From the IMG/VR virus record IMGVR_UViG_3300028654_000384, positions 124,001 through 188,000 of that record: a DNA stretch of 64,000 bases; one strand, given 5' to 3'. The translations under genes were made by a program, and so were the position numbers. The DNA is from a virus. The notes under the pieces were generated by a model. That model did not search any database. It had not been told where the DNA came from and worked only from the letters and a program-made list of their open reading frames with translations. This document shows, one piece after another, positions 1,552-63,966 of this stretch (within the stretch, counting starts at the first letter, position 1; the number at the start of each line of letters is the position of its first letter).

Positions 1552-2316
1552 ATGTGCACCCTCATCGTCCTCAGTGAAGCGATCGATGGTTACCCACTCG
1601 TCGTCGCCGCCAATCGCGATGAGCACTATGATCGGCCTTCGCTGCCGCCTGCAATCACCGGTGATGTCATCTGCCCGCGTGATCTCCACAAGGGTGGCAC
1701 GTGGCTGGGCGTGGCTCGTGGTGGCTGGTTCGCCGGGTTGACCAACCAAGTCGACGCCCACCAACCGCACCTGCTGGCGTCACGAGGCCACGTCGTTGAT
1801 GCTTGCCTCAAGGCCGGCAATCACCTGGCCGTGGCCCAATACCTGCAGGGGCTTGATCGTGGCGTCTACAACAACTTCAACCTGGTCTTTGGCAGGCCCG
1901 GCGCCATTTTTTTGTGCCGTGTCTGGGGGCTGCACGCGCTGGAGATGCTCGTGGTGCCTGCAGGAACCAGCGTCTTCACCAATGATTGTTGGGACGGGCA
2001 GTTTCAGGCCAAGGCCGAGCGCGCCCGCGAATTGACCACCCACCTCGCCGGCGCAGTACCGATCCACGACGTCAAGAACGCGTTGTTCGCAGTGCTGTCA
2101 GACCACCAACACGGTGACGATCCTCGTCAATCGATGTGCATCCATGCCGACGGTTGGGGCACTCGTAGCACCTCGATCATCACAGTGTCCAATGAGGGGG
2201 CCGTGGAGTACTACTATTCAGATGGTGCACCGTGTAGGAGTCCCGGTGTTGCATGTGTGGGCGTTCTATCGATTGATGACGAACTCATCACTGACGCAGA
2301 CCTGAAGAAACCCTGA
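1552..2316 (+). CDS. NRDE-family protein (TANGO2-like, predicted Ntn-hydrolase fold)
   Basis: 254 aa. It begins Met-Cys-Thr, with Cys2 placed to become an N-terminal nucleophile, and has the diagnostic AANRDE motif at residues 19-24. Further family patterns are GTWLGVARGGWFAGLTN (about 44-60) and FNLVFG. Length matches the family (about 250 aa). NRDE/TANGO2 proteins are linked to haem and lipid homeostasis in cells, but the reaction is unresolved. It has its own promoter and is followed by an overlapping small gene. A cargo role is inferred. Confidence 0.85.
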   Translation: MCTLIVLSEAIDGYPLVVAANRDEHYDRPSLPPAITGDVICPRDLHKGGTWLGVARGGWFAGLTNQVDAHQPHLLASRGHVVDACLKAGNHLAVAQYLQGLDRGVYNNFNLVFGRPGAIFLCRVWGLHALEMLVVPAGTSVFTNDCWDGQFQAKAERARELTTHLAGAVPIHDVKNALFAVLSDHQHGDDPRQSMCIHADGWGTRSTSIITVSNEGAVEYYYSDGAPCRSPGVACVGVLSIDDELITDADLKKP

Positions 2317-5184: not shown

Positions 5185-5214
5185 TTGAACAATCGGCCTA
5201 ATCAGGTGTATGAT
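5185..5214 (+). promoter_or_regulatory. groEL promoter, predicted leaderless
   Basis: TTGAAC (5185-5190), 18-bp spacer, TATGAT (5209-5214), 7 nt to ATG 5222. The alternative ATG at 5210 lies inside the -10 box, so 5222 is preferred. No CIRCE-like operator is visible. Confidence 0.6.
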
Positions 5215-5221
5215 TGAGGCC

Positions 5222-6871
5222 ATGAACGACAATACCACGCACGTCATCTTTGCCGCGGACGCTCGTAAGCAACTGTGGGCCGGCATGAAGATTGCTGCCG
5301 ATGCCGTCACCACGACGTTGGGCCCTAAAGGTCGCACCGTCATCATCCAGCGCGCTAACCAATCCCCTCTGGTGACGAAGGACGGGATCACCGTCGCCAA
5401 GTCGATCAAGTTGAAAGATCCCGTCAAGCGGATGGGCGCCGAACTGATCCTCGAAGCTGCCAATCAGACCAATGAGGTCGCCGGTGACGGCACCACGACG
5501 GCCACGTGCCTGACGGCCGCGCTCGTCGCCGAAGGTTTGAAGCTGGTCGAAGGCGGCTTTAGCCCACTCGAGCTGTGCAAGGGCATTGAGGCAGCGACCG
5601 GGTTGGTGCTCGCCGCCCTCAAACAACAGGCGGTGCAGGTGTCAACCAGTGCTGCGGTCGCCCAAGTCGGTACCATCAGTGCCAACGGTGATGCACAGAT
5701 CGGCAAGTTGATCGCCGATGCCATGGAACACGTGGGCCGCGACGGCATCATCACCGTCGAGGACGCCAAGGGCATGGCCACGTCAATGTCAATCGCTGAT
5801 GGCATGCAGTTTGAACGCGGCTACATTAGCCCCTACTTCGTCACCGATGCAGAACGGATGCGGGCGACGTACGATGATGCCTTTGTCCTCGTCACTGACA
5901 AGAAGATCAGCAGCCTCAAGGAACTGATCCCACTGCTCGAGCGAGTGGTGCGGTTACAGAAGGGCCTGCTGATCATCGCTGAAGATGTCGACGGTGATGC
6001 ACTGACGGGCCTCGTCCTCAACCGCGTCAAGTCAGGCCTGCCCGTTGTCGCCATCAAGGCACCCGGTTACGGCCTGCACCGACAAGAGCTACTGCACGAC
6101 ATCTGCGTCATGACGGGTGCAACCCTCGTCTCCAGTGCCAACGGCCTGACACTCGACAAGGTCACTGACGCCAACTTGGGACGTGTCAAGCGCTTCAACA
6201 CCGACGCGAAGTCGACGACGCTCGTCGGGACGGGTGCTCAAAAGACGCACATTGACACCCACGTGGTTGAACTGCGCAAGCAGCTCGAGGACATCACTCT
6301 GGGGCAGGATGAGGTGACCAAGCTGAAGGTTCGCATTGCCAAGTTGGCCTCGGGCGTCGCCGTCATCCGCGTCGGCGGCGCGACCGAAGTCGAGATGACA
6401 GAGCGGCGCTTCCGCGTCGAGGATGCATTGAACGCGACGAAAGCGGCCGTCGAAGAGGGCATTGTGCCCGGTGGCGGCATGGCCTTCTACCACGCCGTCC
6501 ATGCAGTGAAGAGTACGACGGTCGATGAAGCCACCGGCGCCCACGATGAGCAGGCAGGCATGGGTGTCGTCTATCGGGCGTGCCTCGCGCCGCTCAAGCG
6601 CATCATTGAGAATGCAGGTGCCAGCTCTCCCGTGGTGCTGGCGGAATTGGCGCGCAGGGATGCCGCGGCACCGCTCATCAATGACAACATGGGTTACAAC
6701 GCGGCGACGGGTGAATACGTCGACCTCGTCACTGCCGGCGTCGTCGATCCTGTCAAGGTGGCACGGACTGCACTGAAGAACGCAGCATCAGTTGCTGTCA
6801 CCTTCCTCAGCCTCGACGCCGTGGTGTATGATGAACAGGTCACCAAGGAGCAACACGCTGATGAACAGTGA
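5222..6871 (+). CDS. groEL: GroEL-type chaperonin
   Basis: 549 aa, full length for a group I chaperonin. Visible family signatures: ATP-site TLGPKGR near residue 31, GDGTTTAT near 86, VIRVGGATEVEM near 380, and RVEDALNATKAAVEEG near 395, which contains the catalytic Asp of the ATPase site. It should form the folding ring for nascent or virion proteins. No groES-like gene is in the window, so it may use the host co-chaperonin or work without one. The C-terminus lacks the GGM tail and ends in a charged KEQHADEQ. Chaperonins are known in some jumbo phages (for example phage EL), but this one reads as close to canonical bacterial GroEL. Confidence 0.96.
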   Translation: MNDNTTHVIFAADARKQLWAGMKIAADAVTTTLGPKGRTVIIQRANQSPLVTKDGITVAKSIKLKDPVKRMGAELILEAANQTNEVAGDGTTTATCLTAALVAEGLKLVEGGFSPLELCKGIEAATGLVLAALKQQAVQVSTSAAVAQVGTISANGDAQIGKLIADAMEHVGRDGIITVEDAKGMATSMSIADGMQFERGYISPYFVTDAERMRATYDDAFVLVTDKKISSLKELIPLLERVVRLQKGLLIIAEDVDGDALTGLVLNRVKSGLPVVAIKAPGYGLHRQELLHDICVMTGATLVSSANGLTLDKVTDANLGRVKRFNTDAKSTTLVGTGAQKTHIDTHVVELRKQLEDITLGQDEVTKLKVRIAKLASGVAVIRVGGATEVEMTERRFRVEDALNATKAAVEEGIVPGGGMAFYHAVHAVKSTTVDEATGAHDEQAGMGVVYRACLAPLKRIIENAGASSPVVLAELARRDAAAPLINDNMGYNAATGEYVDLVTAGVVDPVKVARTALKNAASVAVTFLSLDAVVYDEQVTKEQHADEQ

Positions 6872-11691: not shown

Positions 11692-12075
11692 ATGAAGACA
11701 ACACTACGTCGCTTGAAGCAGGTCATCCGAGAAGCCGCGGGTGAAGAGCACCTCAAGTCTTACGAGAACGTCACAGTGGGTGACTGGTACAAGGAACGTC
11801 CTGAACCTCGCTTTCGTGGTGCACAGCCCGAAGCAGCCGACGTCGCACAGTTGGTCGACCTGTATTGGCGTGACTTTGGTGGCACTCACGGCAAGTTGTT
11901 GATGGCGACGCGACGTTTTCCCAGCGGGCACAGCACCAACAGCAGGTACGACGTGTGGATGGAGAAGTTTGAGGGCCCGGCGACGCCCGAAGAGGTCACC
12001 CAAGCGAAGGCACACGGTGATGCCAAACAGCGTCACATGGCTCGCACGATCGACACCTCACGCGAGGGCACCTGA
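11692..12075 (+). CDS. protein with LRRLKQVIRE N-terminal leader
   Basis: 127 aa. MKTTLRRLKQVIREAAG is the shared leader; the remainder (YWRDFGGTHGKLLMATRRFPSGHSTNSRYDVWMEKFEG) has no recognised domain. Stop and next start overlap by one base. Possibly virion-associated if the leader is a packaging tag. Confidence 0.6.
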   Translation: MKTTLRRLKQVIREAAGEEHLKSYENVTVGDWYKERPEPRFRGAQPEAADVAQLVDLYWRDFGGTHGKLLMATRRFPSGHSTNSRYDVWMEKFEGPATPEEVTQAKAHGDAKQRHMARTIDTSREGT

Positions 12076-47216: not shown

Positions 47217-47495
47217 ATGAAGCCCGGAGACATGATCGAATGGCGCTACGAGTCGAGCGATAAGCCCATCGCCCGTGATGAATATGTCTGGTCATCGGTG
47301 ATGAACCGTTGGTTGCCCATCGGCGGTGTACACCTGTTGATCAGTCGTGACAATGACGAGCTGACGTGGCTCTACACAAGTGCCGGTGCCACGCGCATCG
47401 GCAAGGCACTGGTTAGTGACAGCAACCTGGGTCGCTTAGATAAACGAGTGTTCGATGGGTGCTACCCCGTCGTAGTGCAAGGTCACCTCACTTAG
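47217..47495 (+). CDS. PGxL-GW family protein, IGGV subgroup
   Basis: 92 aa from ATG 47217. KPGDMIEWRY, DEYVWSSVMNRWLPIGGVHLLIS, LTWLYTSAG, aligning closely with 30164 and 57660. A TACAGT box lies 9 nt upstream. Confidence 0.75.
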   Translation: MKPGDMIEWRYESSDKPIARDEYVWSSVMNRWLPIGGVHLLISRDNDELTWLYTSAGATRIGKALVSDSNLGRLDKRVFDGCYPVVVQGHLT

Positions 47496-47504
47496 GTCTA
47501 TAAT
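47476..47504 (+). promoter_or_regulatory. promoter of the polysaccharide operon
   Basis: TGCAAG (47476-47481) inside the previous gene, 17 bp, consensus TATAAT (47499-47504). Predicted start near 47,511; no other obvious promoter before 52,618. Confidence 0.75.
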
Positions 47505-47531
47505 GGTCTTTCAACGCTAGAAAGCAGTGCA

Positions 47532-47702
47532 ATGCAGGTCTATAAGCACACGGAAATTCAGGCGGTGTTGGCCATGTTCTCCGCCTTCAACATCGAAGTT
47601 GAAGTGGTCGAGGGCGGTGCCAACCAACCCATGACGATCCACACCAAGTTGTTTCAACGCAAAGACGGAGAGTACGCTGATGAACCCGAAGAGACTGTTT
47701 AG
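47532..47702 (+). CDS. small hypothetical protein, first gene of the operon
   Basis: 56 aa. QVYKHTEIQAVLAMFSAFNIEVEVVEGG and an acidic end. It overlaps the next gene by 23 nt. Unknown. Confidence 0.5.
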   Translation: MQVYKHTEIQAVLAMFSAFNIEVEVVEGGANQPMTIHTKLFQRKDGEYADEPEETV

Positions 47703-48798
47703 CTCGCTCGCCGCACTGCTGGTGGGGCTGGGCGTCGTTGGCACCGCCAGTGCGCAGGAAACGGGTCACGACAAGGATATTCACGATCGTGATTATTGCG
47801 ACAAGGTGCAGGCCCGCGCCCATGCTGATGCGTGGTTGTTGTTCTCGCCGTCGCTGCAGGTGCAGGGCATCAAGTACCCGGCGGGGGCACCGGGCGTCGT
47901 CGCGGTTGGTGGATCAGAAACTCCCGGTGGTTATCAGGTTCGTAGCTCACTATTGTGGAGCCCGCTCGATGCCTACAAGGGCACCGTCGAACAAGCCGTC
48001 GCAAATAAGGATTGCCTGCAACACTCGGCCATGGTCGATGCCCAAAATCTTTTGGAGATGATGAATGACGTCGGCCGAGCACCTGCATTGCAGGCCGAGG
48101 TGACGTACCTCAAGTTCCATGCCGACGATATGAACGACATTCTCACCAATGTGCATAAACGCCTTGTGATTGGTCACAGCACGATCATCGAACTCGCTGC
48201 TGTACAGGCAGGCATCGATCTGCTTGAACGCAAGCTCGCCGCAGCGCAGGGTCAACTGTCACTCATCGAAACGAAGGATTATGTCGTTACACCACGCTCG
48301 TCGACAGAGATCGTCGAGCGATTACAACGCTACTCAATGGAATATGAGAAAGAGACGGCACGACTCAGATCGATCGATCCATGGGCTATCAGCGTGTCAG
48401 GCGGCGTTGTCCCGCCCATGGGCGACGGTGGTTCGGCGGCGTGGTTTGGCATGGTGACGGTGCAGTATAATTTCGGGGGTTTCGTCCGCGGGGCTGATGA
48501 GAGCAAGTATCTCTCAGCCCGCCAGCACGAACTGCAATATGCTCGTTACGAACTTGCTGATCAGGTTCGGCGTTTACAAGATGGCATTCAGGTGGGCATC
48601 GAATCTGCGGATGCCGAAATCGTCACGCTTGACAAGCGTATCAGTGAACTTAATGACCTATGTGAGCAGTTAAAGCTTCATATTGAAGCACCCAATGCTA
48701 TGAGCACATTAGGCGTCGTTGAGCTTCAGCACATGGATGCGGTGAGTGATAGGTTGTACTTGATCGAACTACGTCGGCAATTGTCGGCGTGGAAGTGA
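47680..48798 (+). CDS. TolC/OEP-like outer-membrane channel protein
   Basis: 372 aa. Signal peptide SSLAALLVGLGVVGTASAQ. The mature part alternates short beta stretches (AVGGSETPGGYQVRSSLLW; WFGMVTVQYNFGGF near residue 265) with long helices (EVTYLKFHADDMNDIL, IDLLERKLAAAQGQLSL, ELQYARYELADQVRRLQD), the beta/helix plan of outer-membrane efflux proteins. Shorter than TolC and divergent. Next to a HlyD-like adaptor and a polysaccharide synthase, so it is the likely outer-membrane exit. Confidence 0.65.
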   Translation: MNPKRLFSSLAALLVGLGVVGTASAQETGHDKDIHDRDYCDKVQARAHADAWLLFSPSLQVQGIKYPAGAPGVVAVGGSETPGGYQVRSSLLWSPLDAYKGTVEQAVANKDCLQHSAMVDAQNLLEMMNDVGRAPALQAEVTYLKFHADDMNDILTNVHKRLVIGHSTIIELAAVQAGIDLLERKLAAAQGQLSLIETKDYVVTPRSSTEIVERLQRYSMEYEKETARLRSIDPWAISVSGGVVPPMGDGGSAAWFGMVTVQYNFGGFVRGADESKYLSARQHELQYARYELADQVRRLQDGIQVGIESADAEIVTLDKRISELNDLCEQLKLHIEAPNAMSTLGVVELQHMDAVSDRLYLIELRRQLSAWK

Positions 48799-48820
48799 TG
48801 AAAGTAACGAGAGAGGGAAT

Positions 48821-49909
48821 ATGACAATGGAACAGACCATGGAAACTGCACGCGCCTCTGCACAAATTAACGTGGGGCGGTTTTGGAAGACGCGTGTCTT
48901 CTCGTTTGTGGCATTAGCATCAATGGTGGGTGGCTGCGGCGCCATGGTGCGAGAGGGCTATTTTGTCACTACCGATTCCTTCGTTGCCCCGGCGATTTTG
49001 TCGCCTAATAACGATCTCGTCCTCGACGCACGTTTGAAGCTGGAACAAATCATGTTACAGAAGGGTATTGCCGAACAGGCATTGACGGAAGCCGAGGGCG
49101 ACATCAATGCAGGTGAACAAGCAACGATCAAGTTGATCGAATTGCGTGACACCATTAGTCATGCACTGACGTGGACCAGCAACTTGACAGGTGCGCAAGT
49201 GACGATGGGTAACGCCGATGTTAAGGTCATTGCGACACAGAAGGATGAGTTACAAAACATGATTGCTCGTCAAGAGCAGCTAGTTGAAGACGCTAAATTG
49301 AATATGAATGGCGGGTTGATCGCGCGTCCTGATTATGACCGCGAGGTGCAGGCGCTTGACTCGCTGAAACTAGCACAGTTCGAAAATGACAGGACGCGTA
49401 TGGCTAGCGACCTACAGTTGAAACAGGCTAGTATGGGTCAGCAGGCGCTACTTGCGGGTAAGGGCACCAAGATGCCGATGCCCGATCAGGTCATGGTATT
49501 GAACTCATTGATTACGGTCGAGGTGCAGTTGTTGCAGACGGAAGAATTGCAGAGAACGAAGATTGCTGAGAAGGAAAAAGATCAGGAAGAATTGAAGAAG
49601 ATTGAGTCGCTAGAGAGCGATCTGCGATCGCGGCCTATTTTCAAGGCAATTGATAGTAACGTAGATTTGAGCTTTGCACCATATTCTGCTTTGAAGAATA
49701 TTGTTGTGGGTGCGAAAGTGATGAATTGTGTTTGGGGAGTTTTCAATTGTAAGGAAGTTGGAAAAGTGAAAGAAATTATCTCTGGTGAGGCAGTTCTTCC
49801 CGCAATTTTTGGAACGGGGCAAACAAGAGGACAATTTATTGCAGTTGAGCTAAATGATGCAGATCATGATGCTTCAATGAAAAGTACGATTCTAAGAATC
49901 CGAAACTAA
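48821..49909 (+). CDS. HlyD-like periplasmic adaptor protein
   Basis: 362 aa. N-terminal anchor (VFSFVALASMVGGCGAM, also lipobox-like), then EGYFVTTDSFVAPAILSPNNDLVL as the first half of a barrel/lipoyl domain, and long coiled helices (KLEQIMLQKGIAEQALTEAEG to KIAEKEKDQEELKKIESLE). It returns to SGEAVLPAIFGTGQTRGQFIAVEL as the closing barrel. This is the membrane-fusion-protein order. Base composition changes to AT-rich within the gene near 49,600. Confidence 0.68.
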   Translation: MTMEQTMETARASAQINVGRFWKTRVFSFVALASMVGGCGAMVREGYFVTTDSFVAPAILSPNNDLVLDARLKLEQIMLQKGIAEQALTEAEGDINAGEQATIKLIELRDTISHALTWTSNLTGAQVTMGNADVKVIATQKDELQNMIARQEQLVEDAKLNMNGGLIARPDYDREVQALDSLKLAQFENDRTRMASDLQLKQASMGQQALLAGKGTKMPMPDQVMVLNSLITVEVQLLQTEELQRTKIAEKEKDQEELKKIESLESDLRSRPIFKAIDSNVDLSFAPYSALKNIVVGAKVMNCVWGVFNCKEVGKVKEIISGEAVLPAIFGTGQTRGQFIAVELNDADHDASMKSTILRIRN

Positions 49910-49919
49910 AGGACATCAG

Positions 49920-51662
49920 ATGGATACTATTCTTTGGCGTTTGCATGATTCCATGCATCTTGCATGGGTTGTTATTTTTGCACTCGTAGTCAGTCTTTGT
50001 TTGCTCAACGTCCACTACATTCCTGTAGTATTTCGTACAGCATTCAGAAGGTTGGTATCTGGCAATTCTTCACATACGCCCAAGAATATGGGCAATTGCC
50101 CTACTGGACTTGTAATCATTCCATCGCTGCTTAGAAACGAAGAAGATTATACCGCCATCATTGCCACAGTAGAAAGTTGTGCTTCTAATCAATACCCCAA
50201 TGATTTGTATATCATAGTTAGTATTGATGGGAAGAACGAGAATCAAAAATTATTTGCACAACTAGCTAACTGGCTCGATTCAAGATCGTACTCTAACACT
50301 GTAAAACTGCACCTCACATATGATGAGGTTCGTCGTAGCAAAATGATGGCTATCGATCGTGGGGCACAGTATATGAAAGCCCTTGTTGCTAGTGGCGCGG
50401 TGTCATCCTTTCCCACCATCTATTTTAGCATCGACGCTGACTCTATTCTTAGTGAGCAAGCTCTCAATAGAATGGCATCTCAGCTAAATACTCCACACCC
50501 AATTACCGGTAACAAAAGGCGAACTATTGCCGGAACTCCGATGGTTCACTCGCACGTGTTATGGCAAGGTTGGCGCTCATTCTTTACGATTGAAAATCAG
50601 ATCTATCTCAATGTTGCTCGTATGTTTATGATGTCAGGTGTTGCTCGTAGCAATTTGGGTGTTATTCCTTACATTGGAGTGCCAGGAGCTATTTACGCTA
50701 CTTGGAGTGAGATTCTATTGGATGCTCCTAAGTTTATGGGTTACATAAGATCCATTACATTTATTGACTGGCTACGTTGGTGGGTGGGAATTCCTCTTCC
50801 TACGTTTGCAGAATCTAGCGCTGAGCCAATTCCTCAATTGTTGACAGGAAACACAGATGATACAAGTATGGCGGTTGTAATTTCAATCTCTACTTGGCAA
50901 GACAATAGGTTTGTTCTTGAGTTGCCAAGATCTCCACTTCATGCGTTTGGCAGATTGCTTCGCTCTTGGTTTATTGAACGAACGCATAATCACGATCCAG
51001 AATCGAAAGCTTATACTTATGTTCCTCCTTCTATTAAGGGATTGTGGCTTCAACGAAAACGATGGAACAGCTCGAGAATTGAATTAAATTTGAGATTCTC
51101 AAAAGCATTTTTGTTTTGCTGGGACACTGGATTTCCGTTTATGTTTCAGCTATCTATTGTTGGAATAATTTTCTTTCGAGTGTTGCTGACATACGTTATA
51201 ATTCCATTCGTCATATTTGGTGAAGCCTCCAACGTCTTCTATTGTTTGATGGTGGGTATGACGTTGAGTTTTATTTGTAATCTCATTCTTACATTGACCG
51301 CACTTGCAATGGATACTGAACGACGTAGATATTGGGCGGTGTTGCTTGCGTTACCAACGGCTGGTTTGTTTTCTCTCGTGTTCGGTGCAACCGTAGGTAT
51401 TTGGGGATTTATGAAAGACGTATTGTGGAAAGGAAACAATGTTAAATTCACACCAGCTTCTACGTTGATAACTGGTGGAAGTCAGCGAATTGCAATTGCA
51501 TTTCGTGTTCAGCGATTCCTATCAATGTGTATTCGTTCATTACGATATGGTGATGTTCCGTTCGGTCTTTGGTGGGGATCTTGGTATGAAAGAGTGCCCT
51601 ATGTTCGTAACGGTTATGCAGATTGGTCTAACAAAAAGAACAGTCAATACGTGCTAAAATGA
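49920..51662 (+). CDS. processive family-2 glycosyltransferase (cellulose/chitin synthase-like)
   Basis: 580 aa, AT-rich. N-terminal transmembrane segment (WVVIFALVVSLCLLNVHY), GT-A domain with IIVSIDGKNE, the metal-binding SIDADS (about residue 170), GNTDDTSMA as the acceptor-site TED equivalent (about 318), LWLQRKRWNSSR as the Q-x-x-R-W motif (about 377), then several C-terminal membrane helices (LSIVGIIFFRVLLTYVIIPFV and three more). These define a membrane synthase that polymerises and extrudes a beta-linked polysaccharide. The sugar cannot be told. Overlaps the next gene (ATGA). Confidence 0.88.
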   Translation: MDTILWRLHDSMHLAWVVIFALVVSLCLLNVHYIPVVFRTAFRRLVSGNSSHTPKNMGNCPTGLVIIPSLLRNEEDYTAIIATVESCASNQYPNDLYIIVSIDGKNENQKLFAQLANWLDSRSYSNTVKLHLTYDEVRRSKMMAIDRGAQYMKALVASGAVSSFPTIYFSIDADSILSEQALNRMASQLNTPHPITGNKRRTIAGTPMVHSHVLWQGWRSFFTIENQIYLNVARMFMMSGVARSNLGVIPYIGVPGAIYATWSEILLDAPKFMGYIRSITFIDWLRWWVGIPLPTFAESSAEPIPQLLTGNTDDTSMAVVISISTWQDNRFVLELPRSPLHAFGRLLRSWFIERTHNHDPESKAYTYVPPSIKGLWLQRKRWNSSRIELNLRFSKAFLFCWDTGFPFMFQLSIVGIIFFRVLLTYVIIPFVIFGEASNVFYCLMVGMTLSFICNLILTLTALAMDTERRRYWAVLLALPTAGLFSLVFGATVGIWGFMKDVLWKGNNVKFTPASTLITGGSQRIAIAFRVQRFLSMCIRSLRYGDVPFGLWWGSWYERVPYVRNGYADWSNKKNSQYVLK

Positions 51663-52618
51663 AAATTTTATCGCTTATAGCTCTAGTACTGTCTTCGTGT
51701 GTAAGTAGCAATCTCTATTTTAGAGAAGTTCACGCTAAAAAGCCAACATTTTCATTAGAGGAGAAAAAAATGACAGTCATAAACAACGATTCTGTGCGTG
51801 GACTATTTGTGTGGGATGATGTTGCTAACTCAGAAGAGGAAATTACCAGTTTAGTAACTTTTTGTAAAGTAAAGGAAATCAACGTAGTATATGCATCATT
51901 GTATAGTCACTTACTTGTAAAAAAAGATTTTGTCGCAGTTCAAAATCTACTCAATAGTTTGCATTCCAACGGAATAAAAGTTCATGCATTGTTTGGTAAT
52001 TCAGATTACGGTTCCAAAAAACAATGGGTTGTTGAAAACGTTGGCGAAGCAGTAGTTCAATATAATTCAGTATCATCTGATAAAATCGATGGTGTGTTGC
52101 TAGACGCTGAGTATTGGTCTGGTAGTGCTGGACATCATACGCAAGCCGATGCGATAGGCATGATGGATCTAATAAGGGCACTAAAAATAAAAACTGGCAC
52201 GCCAGTTGGATTTAGCCCTCCGTACTGGTTTGCAGATCCTAAAAATAATCAAGCGCTGGACGTTGTTTATGATGGACACACAATGAAAGAAGGTCAGCAC
52301 ATGATTTATGTTGCGGACTACGTTGTAGTGCAGGACTATTTTAGTGATCCACAAAAACAGATTGAACATTTCAATCCGTGGTTTGATTTTGCAGTTTCTA
52401 CCGGTAGAAATGTTGGTTTGGTGTTGGCATCAGAAGTTAGTGAGCCATCGAAACTAGCTCATGCCTATTCCTATAATAGACTACAGGTGGGTGATGAGGC
52501 GCACATGCAGTCTAGCCTGGCCAGCGTTTCGCAATTCTATACAATGAAGCACGGTGCAGACAGGGTATGGTGGGGTTGTGCTATTGAGCAGTATCGTTCG
52601 TATCGTCAGATGAAGTAA
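51659..52618 (+). CDS. glycosidase-like TIM-barrel lipoprotein
   Basis: 319 aa, AT-rich. Lipobox LVLSSC (residues 9-14). RGLFVWDDVANSEEEI, NVVYASLYSHLL, KVHALFGN, DKIDGVLLDAEYW, TPVGFSPPYW and ADYVVVQDYF follow the successive strands of a TIM barrel, with Asp/Glu in DAEYW placed like a catalytic pair. Predicted to cut or trim the polymer made by the upstream synthase, as hydrolases do in several exopolysaccharide systems. Confidence 0.65.
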   Translation: MKILSLIALVLSSCVSSNLYFREVHAKKPTFSLEEKKMTVINNDSVRGLFVWDDVANSEEEITSLVTFCKVKEINVVYASLYSHLLVKKDFVAVQNLLNSLHSNGIKVHALFGNSDYGSKKQWVVENVGEAVVQYNSVSSDKIDGVLLDAEYWSGSAGHHTQADAIGMMDLIRALKIKTGTPVGFSPPYWFADPKNNQALDVVYDGHTMKEGQHMIYVADYVVVQDYFSDPQKQIEHFNPWFDFAVSTGRNVGLVLASEVSEPSKLAHAYSYNRLQVGDEAHMQSSLASVSQFYTMKHGADRVWWGCAIEQYRSYRQMK

Positions 52619-52930: not shown

Positions 52931-53971
52931 ATGTCGAAACGTATCATCACGGTGCTCGCCGCAATCGCGCTGGCATCAGTCACCTCCGCCGCATCGGCCG
53001 AGGACTTCTCGCTCCACGTCGAAGGCGGCCCGGCGCTTCAGCTCCGCGCCCCCAACGGCGACATCGTCGACCACAATCGCTTCAAGTTCGGCGCTAGTGG
53101 TGAGGTCGACGGCCTCATCGCCTTGATCCCCAACCTCGCAGTCGGTCCGACGGTGTCGGCGGTGTTTCTGCCGCAGTCCACCCCCAATACCGAAGGCGCT
53201 GTCATGTGGCAGTTCGACGGCACCGTCCGCCTGCAGGGCGCGCGCTCGGCCGGCTGGTCGCCCTACATTCAAGGTTCGCTCGGCGCTGCGAAACAGGCGG
53301 CGATCTGGAACCCGGGTTTCATGACGCAGGTCGGCGTCGACTTCGCCCTCAATCAGGAGCACTCGTCGTGGCTCGGCCTTTACGTGGGCTGGGACAAAGT
53401 GCTCGACACCTACAACGCCGCTGACAAGCAGACGGCGCTGCTCTCTCGCCAAGACACCAGCGTCGGCACCGCAGGCGTCAGCATGTCGTTCGACTTCCCG
53501 TCGAAGCACGCAAAGCGCACCCTCGGCGTCATCACGGTGCAGGAACCGGCACCCGCCTGCCCGCCCGCTCCCGCTGCCCCTGTCGCAGCGCCCGCTCCCG
53601 CGGCCGACGACGGCACGGCACTGTTGGCACCGTCGGTACAGTTCGACAAGGACAGCTTCGTTGTCAGCGCAGACGCTCAGGCGATGCTGACCGACTTCGC
53701 CTCGCAGTACAATGCTGCTCCCGGTGCGAAGAACTACATGCTGATGGTCGAGGGTTATGCCTCGTCGGAGTGCAGTGCGTGCGAAGTTACGCACAACCTC
53801 GTACTGTCGAATAGCCGCGCCAACGCGGTCGCAGACGTCCTCGTCAACAGTGGCAAGGTCGATCGCACCATGATCCACCCGGTCGCCTTCGGCGGCGTGG
53901 GCGCCCCGAACGATGCGAGCAACCGACGCGTCGACACGATTGTCATTCGCCTCGTGAAGATCCAGAAGTAA
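52931..53971 (+). CDS. OmpA-family outer-membrane protein
   Basis: 346 aa. Signal peptide (ITVLAAIALASVTSAASAE), an N-terminal beta-barrel of about 180 residues with alternating strands ending in SVGTAGVSMSFDF, a Pro/Ala linker (APACPPAPAAPVAAPAPAAD), and a C-terminal OmpA domain (VQFDKDSFVVSADAQ, VEGYASSECSACEVTHNLVLSNSRANAV, VAFGGVGAPNDASNRRVDTIV) that binds peptidoglycan. AAGGAGAG precedes the ATG, after a 21-nt inverted repeat (about 52,869-52,890). Predicted to sit in the host outer membrane; could block or alter phage receptors. Confidence 0.88.
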   Translation: MSKRIITVLAAIALASVTSAASAEDFSLHVEGGPALQLRAPNGDIVDHNRFKFGASGEVDGLIALIPNLAVGPTVSAVFLPQSTPNTEGAVMWQFDGTVRLQGARSAGWSPYIQGSLGAAKQAAIWNPGFMTQVGVDFALNQEHSSWLGLYVGWDKVLDTYNAADKQTALLSRQDTSVGTAGVSMSFDFPSKHAKRTLGVITVQEPAPACPPAPAAPVAAPAPAADDGTALLAPSVQFDKDSFVVSADAQAMLTDFASQYNAAPGAKNYMLMVEGYASSECSACEVTHNLVLSNSRANAVADVLVNSGKVDRTMIHPVAFGGVGAPNDASNRRVDTIVIRLVKIQK

Positions 53972-57397: not shown

Positions 57398-57679
57398 ATG
57401 GTCACCAAGAGCATCGCCAAGCGCCTCGACGCAATGCAGAAGCACAAGCAACCCAAGGTGCCCGTCTTCCCGCCGTCGGCACAGACGACCTATGACAAGG
57501 CGCTGTGCATCAGCACCGAAGGTGGGCCCATGGCGTGGGTTGCCTACGGCATCATGAGCCGCATGAGCGTGCTGTATGCAGCTAACACGGATGCCTTCGA
57601 CAATGAGAAGATGATGGCTGCCATGTTGACCATGGTGAACACGCTGTCGGCGTACGTCGATGCCACAACCTCAACATGA
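57398..57679 (+). CDS. small hypothetical protein
   Basis: 93 aa from ATG 57398 (AGAGGTAGG upstream). Basic N-terminus (KSIAKRLDAMQKHKQPK), helical C-terminus (EKMMAAMLTMVNTLSAYV). Overlaps the next gene by 20 nt. Confidence 0.5.
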   Translation: MVTKSIAKRLDAMQKHKQPKVPVFPPSAQTTYDKALCISTEGGPMAWVAYGIMSRMSVLYAANTDAFDNEKMMAAMLTMVNTLSAYVDATTST

Positions 57680-58001
57680 GCTGAAGGGCGGCGGGACACT
57701 ACGTCCTGGCGACTTGATCGAGTGGGTCTATACCGTCGGCAGGGACCTCGTCTATGCTGACGACATGATGTGGTCACCAGAGATGCAGTCGTCGGTGGCG
57801 ATCGGCGGCGTCCACCTGTTGGTCAGTCTCCGCGTCGGCCTTGGACTTGCATGGTGGGAGATGACGTGGTTGCCACTGGGCGACGGCCCGGATCGTATGG
57901 GATTGTGTAGCATCGCCATTGTTCATACGTCTCCTGCACGACCCAGGCGAATGACCGAAGGTGCTCGGGGCCATGGCCAGCCGCGCCGGCGCTACCTATG
58001 A
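57660..58001 (+). CDS. PGxL-GW family protein, IGGV subgroup
   Basis: 113 aa. RPGDLIEWVYTVG, DDMMWSPEMQSSVAIGGVHLLVS, MTWLPLG, and a long C-terminal extension not shared with its relatives. Confidence 0.7.
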   Translation: MPQPQHELKGGGTLRPGDLIEWVYTVGRDLVYADDMMWSPEMQSSVAIGGVHLLVSLRVGLGLAWWEMTWLPLGDGPDRMGLCSIAIVHTSPARPRRMTEGARGHGQPRRRYL

Positions 58002-61711: not shown

Positions 61712-62671
61712 ATGAGCCTCACCTTCCTTGTCTACGGCTGGTTCAACAAGCAAAACGTCGGCGATGAGCTGATGAAGCAGGCACTCCGCGTCATCTTTGA
61801 GCCCAAGAGCGTCGACCTGCGCTTCGTCGATCACATCAGTACCCAACAATTGGTGGGCGTCGATGCCGTCGTGTTCGGTGGTGGCAGCATCCTCTACGAT
61901 GATCCCGTCATCGATGCCGGAGTGTTGGCGGCGTTGTTGGCACGTGAAGTGCCCACCTTCTACGTCGGCGTGGGCGGCGAGACGGCGGTGGGCCGGGTAC
62001 ACCAACAATTACTCGACGTCGCCGAGCTCACCTTCTTTCGGGAGCTCGATGTACCTGACCTGGTCTATGCGTTGGAGCCCGACCTCAGCACGTTGGCCCA
62101 CCCGCCCAAGGGCGTGCTCTTCGTGCCCAACGTTGAGGTGGTGCCCACCCATGCCGAGCCACACTGGGCCCACGTGGCGTGGGAGCACTTCAAGAACGAG
62201 GTGGCACAGTGCCTCGATCAGTTCATCGATCGCGGCGTGCCCGTCTCCTTCCTGCTGATGTGCAACGGCGAACAGAAGCAGGACGCATGGCCTGCGGCCG
62301 AGCTGATGGGCAGGATGCTGCGACGAGCGCCTCGCCTGTGGACGTATGCAGCGACTGACCTGTCGATCACTCGCTTGATGCGACACTTTGAGTGTGTTGT
62401 CACGCAGCGTTATCACGGCATCATCCTGTCAGAACTGGCGGGGGTGCCCTACGTCAGCATCGCCCACCACGACAAATTGAAGCTCGCGCAACCACACCGA
62501 GGCCAGCACTTGGCATACCACGCCATGAATAAAGACATGCTGACGGATGCACTGGAATTGGCTCGCACCACGCCCATCGCGCCGCACCGTGTCCCGCGCA
62601 AGGTGTACGATGACATGGTCGATCAGATCATCAGCGTCGTCACCGGCGGAAGAAAGAGTGGGCACACATGA
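61712..62671 (+). CDS. polysaccharide pyruvyl transferase-like protein
   Basis: 319 aa. WFNKQNVGDELM (residues 11-22), VDAVVFGGGSILYDD (about 50-64), TFYVGVGGE (about 87-95) and a C-terminal TQRYHGIILSELAGVPYVSI (about 229-248) are the conserved blocks of the CsaB/WcaK pyruvyltransferase family, which adds ketal pyruvate to surface glycans. Ends in an ATGA overlap with the glycosyltransferase. Confidence 0.85.
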   Translation: MSLTFLVYGWFNKQNVGDELMKQALRVIFEPKSVDLRFVDHISTQQLVGVDAVVFGGGSILYDDPVIDAGVLAALLAREVPTFYVGVGGETAVGRVHQQLLDVAELTFFRELDVPDLVYALEPDLSTLAHPPKGVLFVPNVEVVPTHAEPHWAHVAWEHFKNEVAQCLDQFIDRGVPVSFLLMCNGEQKQDAWPAAELMGRMLRRAPRLWTYAATDLSITRLMRHFECVVTQRYHGIILSELAGVPYVSIAHHDKLKLAQPHRGQHLAYHAMNKDMLTDALELARTTPIAPHRVPRKVYDDMVDQIISVVTGGRKSGHT

Positions 62672-63966
62672 ACAGGTTCGTTGCATCACGAAGAGGCAGC
62701 ATCTATGCAGTCTCCAGTGCCCCCATCGTGGCTCCCGATGCTGTCGACACCGAAGTCGTTGAAGTACCAGACGTCCACGCTGACGTCGACACCGCCATGT
62801 TGATCACACACTTTCGGGTGCGCGGCGGCAAGGTACAACCGCGACGGGGCTCACCCGGCACCGCCAGTGCGTTGAAGTTGGCGCTGGTCGGCAACTGGAA
62901 GATGCGGTGCGGCATTGCCACGTACAGCGAGAACCTGTGGCCCGAAATCGCCAAACACGTCGGCGACTTCAAGCTGTTCATCGAGAAGAATGAGCAACCC
63001 ACTGGGCCCACCAACGTCATCGGCGACGTCGCTGTCCCACCTGAGAAGGTGCTGGCGTGCTGGCGGAGGGGCGAGCCGCTGGCCGAGCTGGTGAAGGCGA
63101 TCAAGGACTATGAACCTGACGTGGTGCTAATTCAACACGAATTTGGCCTGTGGCCCAACGCAGGACACTGGCTGTCGCTGATGAGCCAGTTGAGCAACTA
63201 CCGCGTCATTGTGACGATGCACAGTGTGTTTCGACACCGTGACAAGACGATCGTCGAGGCGGCGATCCCCGAGATCGTGGTGCACCTCGAGGGCGCCAAG
63301 CGAGTGTTGAAAGAGGAGAAGGGGGTGCCCGGTGAGGTCTATGTCATCCCACACGGGTGTGCTCCAGTCACTGACGTTGAGCGCCTGTGGAATTTCTATA
63401 AGTCAGATCGAACGCTAATGCAATTCGGATTTGGCTTTAGATACAAGGGGTTTGAGCTGGCGATCAAGGCGACCGACGTGCTGCGGCGCAGGTACCCCGA
63501 CGTCTTCTTCACCGCGTTGTTCAGCGAGTCGCCTTACAACTTGATCGATCACCAGGTCTATTACGACGAATTGATGCACCTCGTCGATGACCTCGATCTC
63601 CATAACAACGTGGCAATCATCCGGGGTTACCAAAGCGACACTTCGCTTGACTCCTACATGCGGACGAATCAGGCGATCCTGTTTCCCTACATCAGTCACC
63701 CGGAACACGAAGTCTTCGGTGCCTCGGGCGCCGCGCGGCTGGCGATGTCGAAGATGGCACCCATCGTCACTACGAGTGTCAATCACTTCAGCGACTTGCC
63801 GACGTTGAAAGCAGACACCCCTGAACAGATCGCCGATGCTCTTGACGCGATGTTCTCCAATCCGATCGCTCGCAAAGTGCAGGTCGATCGGCAACTAGCT
63901 TACTTGAACGACAACACTTGGGCTCGGGTTGGCGTCCGCTATGTAGAACTGTTCACGAAGGTGTAG
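62668..63966 (+). CDS. GT-B glycosyltransferase (GT4-like)
   Basis: 432 aa. After a roughly 65-aa extension the N-terminal Rossmann domain begins KLALVGNWKMRCGIATYSENL, with DVVLIQHEFGLWPN and IVTMHSVFRH. The C-terminal domain has VYVIPHGCAP, LMQFGFGFRYKGFELAIKA, VAIIRGYQSD and HPEHEVFGASGAARLAMSKMAPIVTT, the nucleotide-sugar site with E-x7-E spacing typical of GT4. Coupled to the pyruvyltransferase; together they should modify a surface glycan. Confidence 0.85.
   Translation: MNRFVASRRGSIYAVSSAPIVAPDAVDTEVVEVPDVHADVDTAMLITHFRVRGGKVQPRRGSPGTASALKLALVGNWKMRCGIATYSENLWPEIAKHVGDFKLFIEKNEQPTGPTNVIGDVAVPPEKVLACWRRGEPLAELVKAIKDYEPDVVLIQHEFGLWPNAGHWLSLMSQLSNYRVIVTMHSVFRHRDKTIVEAAIPEIVVHLEGAKRVLKEEKGVPGEVYVIPHGCAPVTDVERLWNFYKSDRTLMQFGFGFRYKGFELAIKATDVLRRRYPDVFFTALFSESPYNLIDHQVYYDELMHLVDDLDLHNNVAIIRGYQSDTSLDSYMRTNQAILFPYISHPEHEVFGASGAARLAMSKMAPIVTTSVNHFSDLPTLKADTPEQIADALDAMFSNPIARKVQVDRQLAYLNDNTWARVGVRYVELFTKV

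Follow-up and report, generated by a model that had tools for sequence, protein, structure and literature searches.

A predicted Myxococcota-type operon for polysaccharide synthesis and export on a jumbo myophage

Layout of the locus and its carrier phage

We analysed a window of 64,000 nucleotides (G000:C1:124001-188000 of a 215,857-base virus record), within which four intact open reading frames lie end to end on the + strand at 47680-52618. The first, P1 (47680-48798, 372 aa), encodes a predicted TolC-type outer membrane channel (OMF) with a signal peptide at its N-terminus; it is followed by P2 (48821-49909, 362 aa), a predicted HlyD/EmrA-type periplasmic adaptor, by P3 (49920-51662, 580 aa), a putative processive GT2 polysaccharide synthase, and by P4 (51659-52618, 319 aa), a putative lipoprotein with a glycoside-hydrolase-like domain. 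Spacings between the genes are 22, 10 and -4 bases, with the start of P4 falling within the stop codon of P3 (ATGA), and purine-rich sequences resembling ribosome sites precede P2 (GAGAGAGGG) and P3 (AAAGGA). This is not chance packing of reading frames, because homologues of the first three genes recur in the same order in Myxococcota (14 of 16 copies, see below). Neither is the operon an obvious assembly joint, because in every stretch fetched (38821-63968), both operon junctions included, another IMG/VR contig (3300031344_000200) has exactly the same sequence as the window.

The sequence-only reading had placed all four genes under one promoter and begun the operon at 47476, and neither claim was supported: a consensus scan returned 5 promoter-like sites against 8.5 expected from shuffling, none of them upstream of P1, and the start had rested on that promoter, the TATAAT at 47499 having no acceptable -35 box. 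No structured terminator was found directly 3' of P4 (folding z-score 0.28). Directly downstream of the operon lies a gene for an OmpA-family protein (52931-53971) of phage-like GC, a relative of which, 64% identical, is carried by a 406-kb viral contig (L078). Further on, at 61712-63966, a polysaccharide pyruvyl transferase-like gene and a GT4 glycosyltransferase gene of phage-like GC overlap by 4 bases, and could serve surface glycan modification.

The carrier encodes two tail sheath proteins, a tape measure candidate, a head-tail adaptor, a DnaB-type helicase, a ribonucleotide reductase and a DnaE-type DNA polymerase, a set of tail sheath, tape measure and replication genes from which it can be named a large (jumbo) myophage, a more definite statement than the “phage-like element” first suggested. 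An identical DNA polymerase occurs in three IMG/VR samples (3300028556, 3300031344 and 3300028800), which may not be independent of the window's own sample. The phage also encodes a GroEL-type chaperonin (window 5210-6871; Cpn60, E 1.9e-69) and a TANGO2/NRDE-family protein (window 1552-2316; E 2.9e-29). An N-terminal stretch of the form M(K)xTxxxLKxxIREA is common to at least seven phage proteins (e.g. G000 window 11692-12075, L003:14192, L005:5890, L006:3412); it resembles a capsid-targeting tag of T4-like phages, and the proteins that bear it may therefore be packaged. Many proteins of 80-130 aa with a common xPGDLV/I motif, encoded at about 8000-47500 and at 57660-58001 of the window, apparently form a large paralogous family. 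Elsewhere on the phage, two nucleotide-sugar epimerase/dehydratase genes (L006:5956-6969 and L007:1779-2735) are a possible source of precursors.

Predicted functions of the four proteins

None of the four proteins matches a Pfam family, P1 matches no PHROG family above noise, and sequence searches of the PDB with P1, P2 and P3 returned nothing meaningful. A Pfam match of P1 to Relaxase_C (E 0.005) was rejected as coiled-coil noise, and the low-E matches of P1 in the PDB sequence search are likewise coiled coils. The identities of P1 and P2 were instead sought in AlphaFold2 (AF2) models, which were built from alignments of only four sequences. The P1 model (pLDDT 80.7) has the TolC layout of helix, two strands, helices, two strands and helix, and a Foldseek search of the PDB returned TolC, OprN, CusC, VceC and SilC (E 7e-11 to 1e-9, probability 1.00) with modest TM-scores (TMq, 0.36-0.54). 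All 13 residues that are invariant among 15 cellular homologues are kept in phage P1.

The P2 model (pLDDT 75.7, pTM 0.43) has one membrane helix at the N-terminus, a long helical hairpin and, at the C-terminus, a beta domain. Its nearest PDB structure by Foldseek is EmrA (4tko; E 2.7e-6, probability 1.00, TM-score 0.33), with MacA and HlyD lower in the list and unrelated coiled coils at weaker E-values. P2 has 16 cellular homologues, and yielded no usable match in family-profile or PDB sequence searches, its adaptor identity coming from the predicted fold. This assignment is less firm than that of P1 as a channel, because coiled coils also match and the pTM is 0.43. The stretch at the tip of the hairpin, GLIARPDYDREVQALDSLKLA, may resemble adaptor tips. 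The similarity to TolC and to HlyD that the sequence-only reading had proposed for the channel and adaptor frames is thus present in the predicted folds (for P1 with a Foldseek E of about 1e-10), though in neither case visible by sequence. Judged from their models, P1 and P2 would be the parts of a tripartite-type TolC/adaptor conduit and would presumably dock with an inner-membrane component. No energised inner-membrane pump was recognised among the four genes, with no transporter-family match in Pfam or NCBIfam; as no ABC, RND or MFS pump gene is present, P3 is left as the sole inner-membrane engine.

P3 carries all of the motifs expected of a processive GT2 synthase, namely D103, D172xD174, the TED-equivalent D313D314T and Q378xxR381W382, and hydropathy places one membrane helix at its N-terminus and about four at its C-terminus. 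By these motifs and helices P3 is a probable processive polysaccharide synthase, as the earlier reading had it. The GT2 motifs are all conserved between phage P3 and 16 cellular copies, and of the 67 residues invariant across these relatives 59 are kept in the phage. P3 weakly matches PgaC/IcaA (NCBIfam, E 2.2e-8), with a score of 33.5 bits that is far below the equivalog cut-off of 422.3; the match to NodC (9e-5) is also far below its cut-off. HHalign aligned P3 to Escherichia coli PgaC with E 6e-10, the alignment to BcsA being marginal. Searched against Pfam at E up to 1, P3 gave no match to a PilZ domain, which, as a matter of regulation, we count against the explanation preferred below.

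P4 has a lipobox, LSSC, at residues 11-14. It shares only 15-19% identity with its relatives, and the pairwise signal lies in the N-terminal half; in an alignment of P4 with these relatives (A4) a DxE motif, D149/E151, is invariant. The A4 profile matches PDB entry 10yv, “Putative GH97 from Cellulomonas fimi”, with E 2.5e-11 and with the DxE motif aligned, a match not obtained with the P4 sequence alone; the annotation of 10yv is itself only putative. Together with the lipobox, this profile match agrees with the suggestion of a glycosidase-like lipoprotein.

A related module in Myxococcota and the origin of the phage copy

A DNA pattern for the peptide GLWxQRxRWN, scanned over 84,980 species genomes, gave 19 loci. 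Four are true P3 relatives, all in Myxococcales or Polyangiaceae metagenome-assembled genomes (MAGs), and three of these have P1 and P2 relatives in order; the other 15 were rejected by tblastn as unrelated to P3. The scan cannot be read as a full census, since the exact peptide is present in only 4 of the 16 cellular copies. In whole-genome searches the synthase turned up in 10 of the 108 genomes from the family to which G002 (a Polyangiaceae MAG) belongs, in 3 of 379 genomes sampled across the phylum and in 1 of 195 from a further phylum-level group. With GT2 profiles, the 247 genomes of the G006 phylum yielded nothing, and the 399 from the phylum to which G901 (L017, an alphaproteobacterium) belongs gave no more than motif-level matches; as scoring was confined to a few top first-look candidates in each genome, rare members could be missing from these counts.

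Looking for the gene order elsewhere, as the sequence-only reading had proposed, recovered it in these Myxococcota modules. Fourteen of the 16 cellular synthase copies are preceded by channel and adaptor on the same strand and in that order (examples, from Polyangiaceae and others, are JAAFHV010000049.1, JANXVA010000803.1 and VFKJ01000599.1); in the other two, one has the order adaptor-channel-synthase and one has no adjacent channel. The cellular module (OMF-MFP-GT2) thus consists of the same three families in the same order as on the phage, with identities to the phage proteins of 38-44% for P3, 31-35% for P2 and 23-31% for P1; it differs in its GC content (64-76%), in residing on host chromosomes, and in having a P4 relative beside only some copies. 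No P4 relative was found in the first seven genomes examined. Sensitive phmmer searches later detected relatives adjoining four cellular modules, on the opposite strand in two; over the stretches fetched, most of the cellular modules have no P4. Because more distant relatives occur in seven other genomes of the order, the P4 family is wider than the module. Among open-access papers we found none that describes this module in a myxobacterium or a phage.

Genes for polysaccharides lie beside the cellular modules, namely three for GH16 glucanases, one for a heparinase II/III-like lyase and one for a UDP-glucose/GDP-mannose dehydrogenase; the GH16 and heparinase-like genes suggest a beta-glucan or uronic-acid polymer in cells, which does not fix the product of the phage copy. 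At some myxobacterial loci (L047, G003:C715; L057, G416:C9) two modules are found near each other, their synthases belonging to two different clades, with heparinase-like or GH16 genes adjoining. The neighbourhood also bears on whether a long polymer is made at all. The module could instead make a short glycan or modify a surface sugar, as in an O-antigen-like coat, exporting oligosaccharides; the pyruvyl transferase-like and GT4 genes 9 kb downstream and the weak but present match to NodC, a chitooligosaccharide synthase, would fit such a role. We think this unlikely, since the QxxRW, DxD and TED-equivalent motifs and C-terminal membrane helices of P3 form a processive layout and the cellular neighbours point to polymers.

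In a tree of the synthases, phage P3 falls within one of three clades (Polyangiaceae-type, support 98/97) on a long branch; the P1 and P2 trees are poorly resolved, and neither fixes the position of the phage. GC along P1-P4 is 55, 48, 41 and 40%, a steady fall across 47680-52618 that is unlike a single-donor block. GC3 is 0.61, 0.52, 0.36 and 0.34, against 0.75 +/- 0.06 for 87 other phage genes, and the CAI of P3 and P4 is 0.37 and 0.36, against 0.69 +/- 0.06 for the 87; P3 and P4 are compositionally foreign to the phage. The fall in GC means that P1-P2 and P3-P4 could have different histories, the first pair being an efflux or protein-export conduit that works with a host inner-membrane pump and the second unrelated low-GC cargo, and EmrA, the best fold match of P2, is a drug-efflux adaptor. 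The adjacency of P1-P2-P3 homologues in 14 of 16 cellular copies and the P4 relatives beside four modules indicate, however, that all four genes belong together, and we hold separate histories to be very improbable. Since the cellular loci have 64-76% GC and the phage genes 55-40%, none of the high-GC myxobacteria sampled is the immediate donor of the operon, which more likely came from an AT-rich carrier or from another phage. Plasmid origin is not supported, no match to P3 or a relative having been found in plasmids.

Among viruses the module is rare. P1, P2, P3 and P4 had no match in 50,697 phage records, and when 2.9 million viral contigs were scanned with parts of the module, this virus alone was recovered; the viral copies found amount to a single virus present in two identical records. 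In BFVD, none of the predicted viral structures matched the P1 fold at E < 0.001. No synthase match was found in 15 records (up to 406 kb) that share the phage DNA polymerase or OmpA-like gene, some of which are fragments, those with an identical polymerase probably being pieces of the same virus. No clean empty site could be shown by way of the downstream OmpA-like gene, because the gene content around it is different in the sole related contig. Restriction to one virus lineage, related large-phage contigs that lack the module and a composition not adapted to the phage are what would be expected of passenger DNA, recently acquired and without function in infection. Against this stand the four frames, intact over about 5 kb, and the retention, despite the long branch, of 59 of 67 invariant synthase and 13 of 13 invariant channel residues, and we regard a functionless passenger as quite unlikely.

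A proposed mechanism and its relation to known systems

Our preferred reading, to which we assign a probability of roughly 0.7, is that P1-P4 form a Myxococcota-type synthase-dependent exopolysaccharide machine, captured by a jumbo myophage from a lineage with that module. The most likely mechanism, which we infer from the parts and their neighbourhood, is one in which P3, in the inner membrane, would join sugars from a nucleotide sugar and pass the chain, as it grows, out of the cytoplasm. With its anchor in the same membrane, P2 would span the periplasm by means of the helical hairpin and dock on P1, and P1, as a trimeric TolC-like outer membrane channel, would allow the chain to leave without a TPR barrel of BcsC/PgaA type or a portal of Wza type, while P4 would trim or clear the polymer in the manner of BcsZ in cellulose systems. 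A polymer made during infection would coat the infected cell and so may lessen further phage adsorption, predation or early cell loss; by analogy with the hyaluronan and chitin synthases of chloroviruses, such a coat is plausibly the most natural benefit. More tentatively, Myxococcota may possess a further class of exporter, with channel, adaptor and GT2 synthase side by side, of which the jumbo phage's captured copy might build a host capsule during infection.

The sequence-only reading had held this pairing to be unlike the designs known for exopolysaccharides. By the features tested it is indeed not of BcsC/PgaA, Alg or Wza type, but the claim was too strong, because for cyanobacteria a conduit of TolC, a HlyD-like protein and a cellulose synthase (XcsAB-TolC) had already been put forward (Maeda et al. 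2018, reviewed in PMC12430437). That model is without experimental validation and its parts do not lie in one operon, and whether operon-organised clusters work in this way is described as open (PMC12430437). The two systems share a GT2 synthase, a HlyD-like adaptor, a TolC-like channel and a hydrolase (XcsC), and differ in that XcsA carries PilZ, TolC is encoded elsewhere and the system is not on a virus. The phage module, with no PilZ match in P3 and with its channel encoded alongside the synthase, is not a member of that system; since channel, adaptor and synthase lie side by side in Myxococcota and in the phage, the XcsAB-TolC type of idea becomes testable in a single construct.

The cellulose (BcsABCZ) and PNAG (PgaABCD) systems likewise combine a processive GT2 synthase, a periplasmic part, a hydrolase and an outer membrane exit, but their exit is the TPR-plus-barrel protein BcsC or PgaA, and BcsB or PgaB/D takes the place of an adaptor; no match to BcsB or to a TPR-barrel partner was found among the four phage genes in Pfam or NCBIfam, nor a Pfam match to a Wza-type Poly_export/OPX protein. 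In alginate synthesis the GT2 synthase Alg8 works with Alg44, a partner bearing HlyD_3, so that synthase and HlyD-type partner are alike, whereas Alg44 also has PilZ and exit is via AlgE/AlgK (PMC4594306). Chlorovirus hyaluronan and chitin synthases put polysaccharide on the infected cell early, their own role being still unclear (PMC4691112); they too are virus-encoded polysaccharide synthases, but they act in an algal host with no outer membrane to cross and have no export channel or adaptor. If our reading is correct, the jumbo phage would be a bacterial virus with a full route for a polymer from the cytoplasm to the outside, for which these chlorovirus synthases are the nearest parallel.
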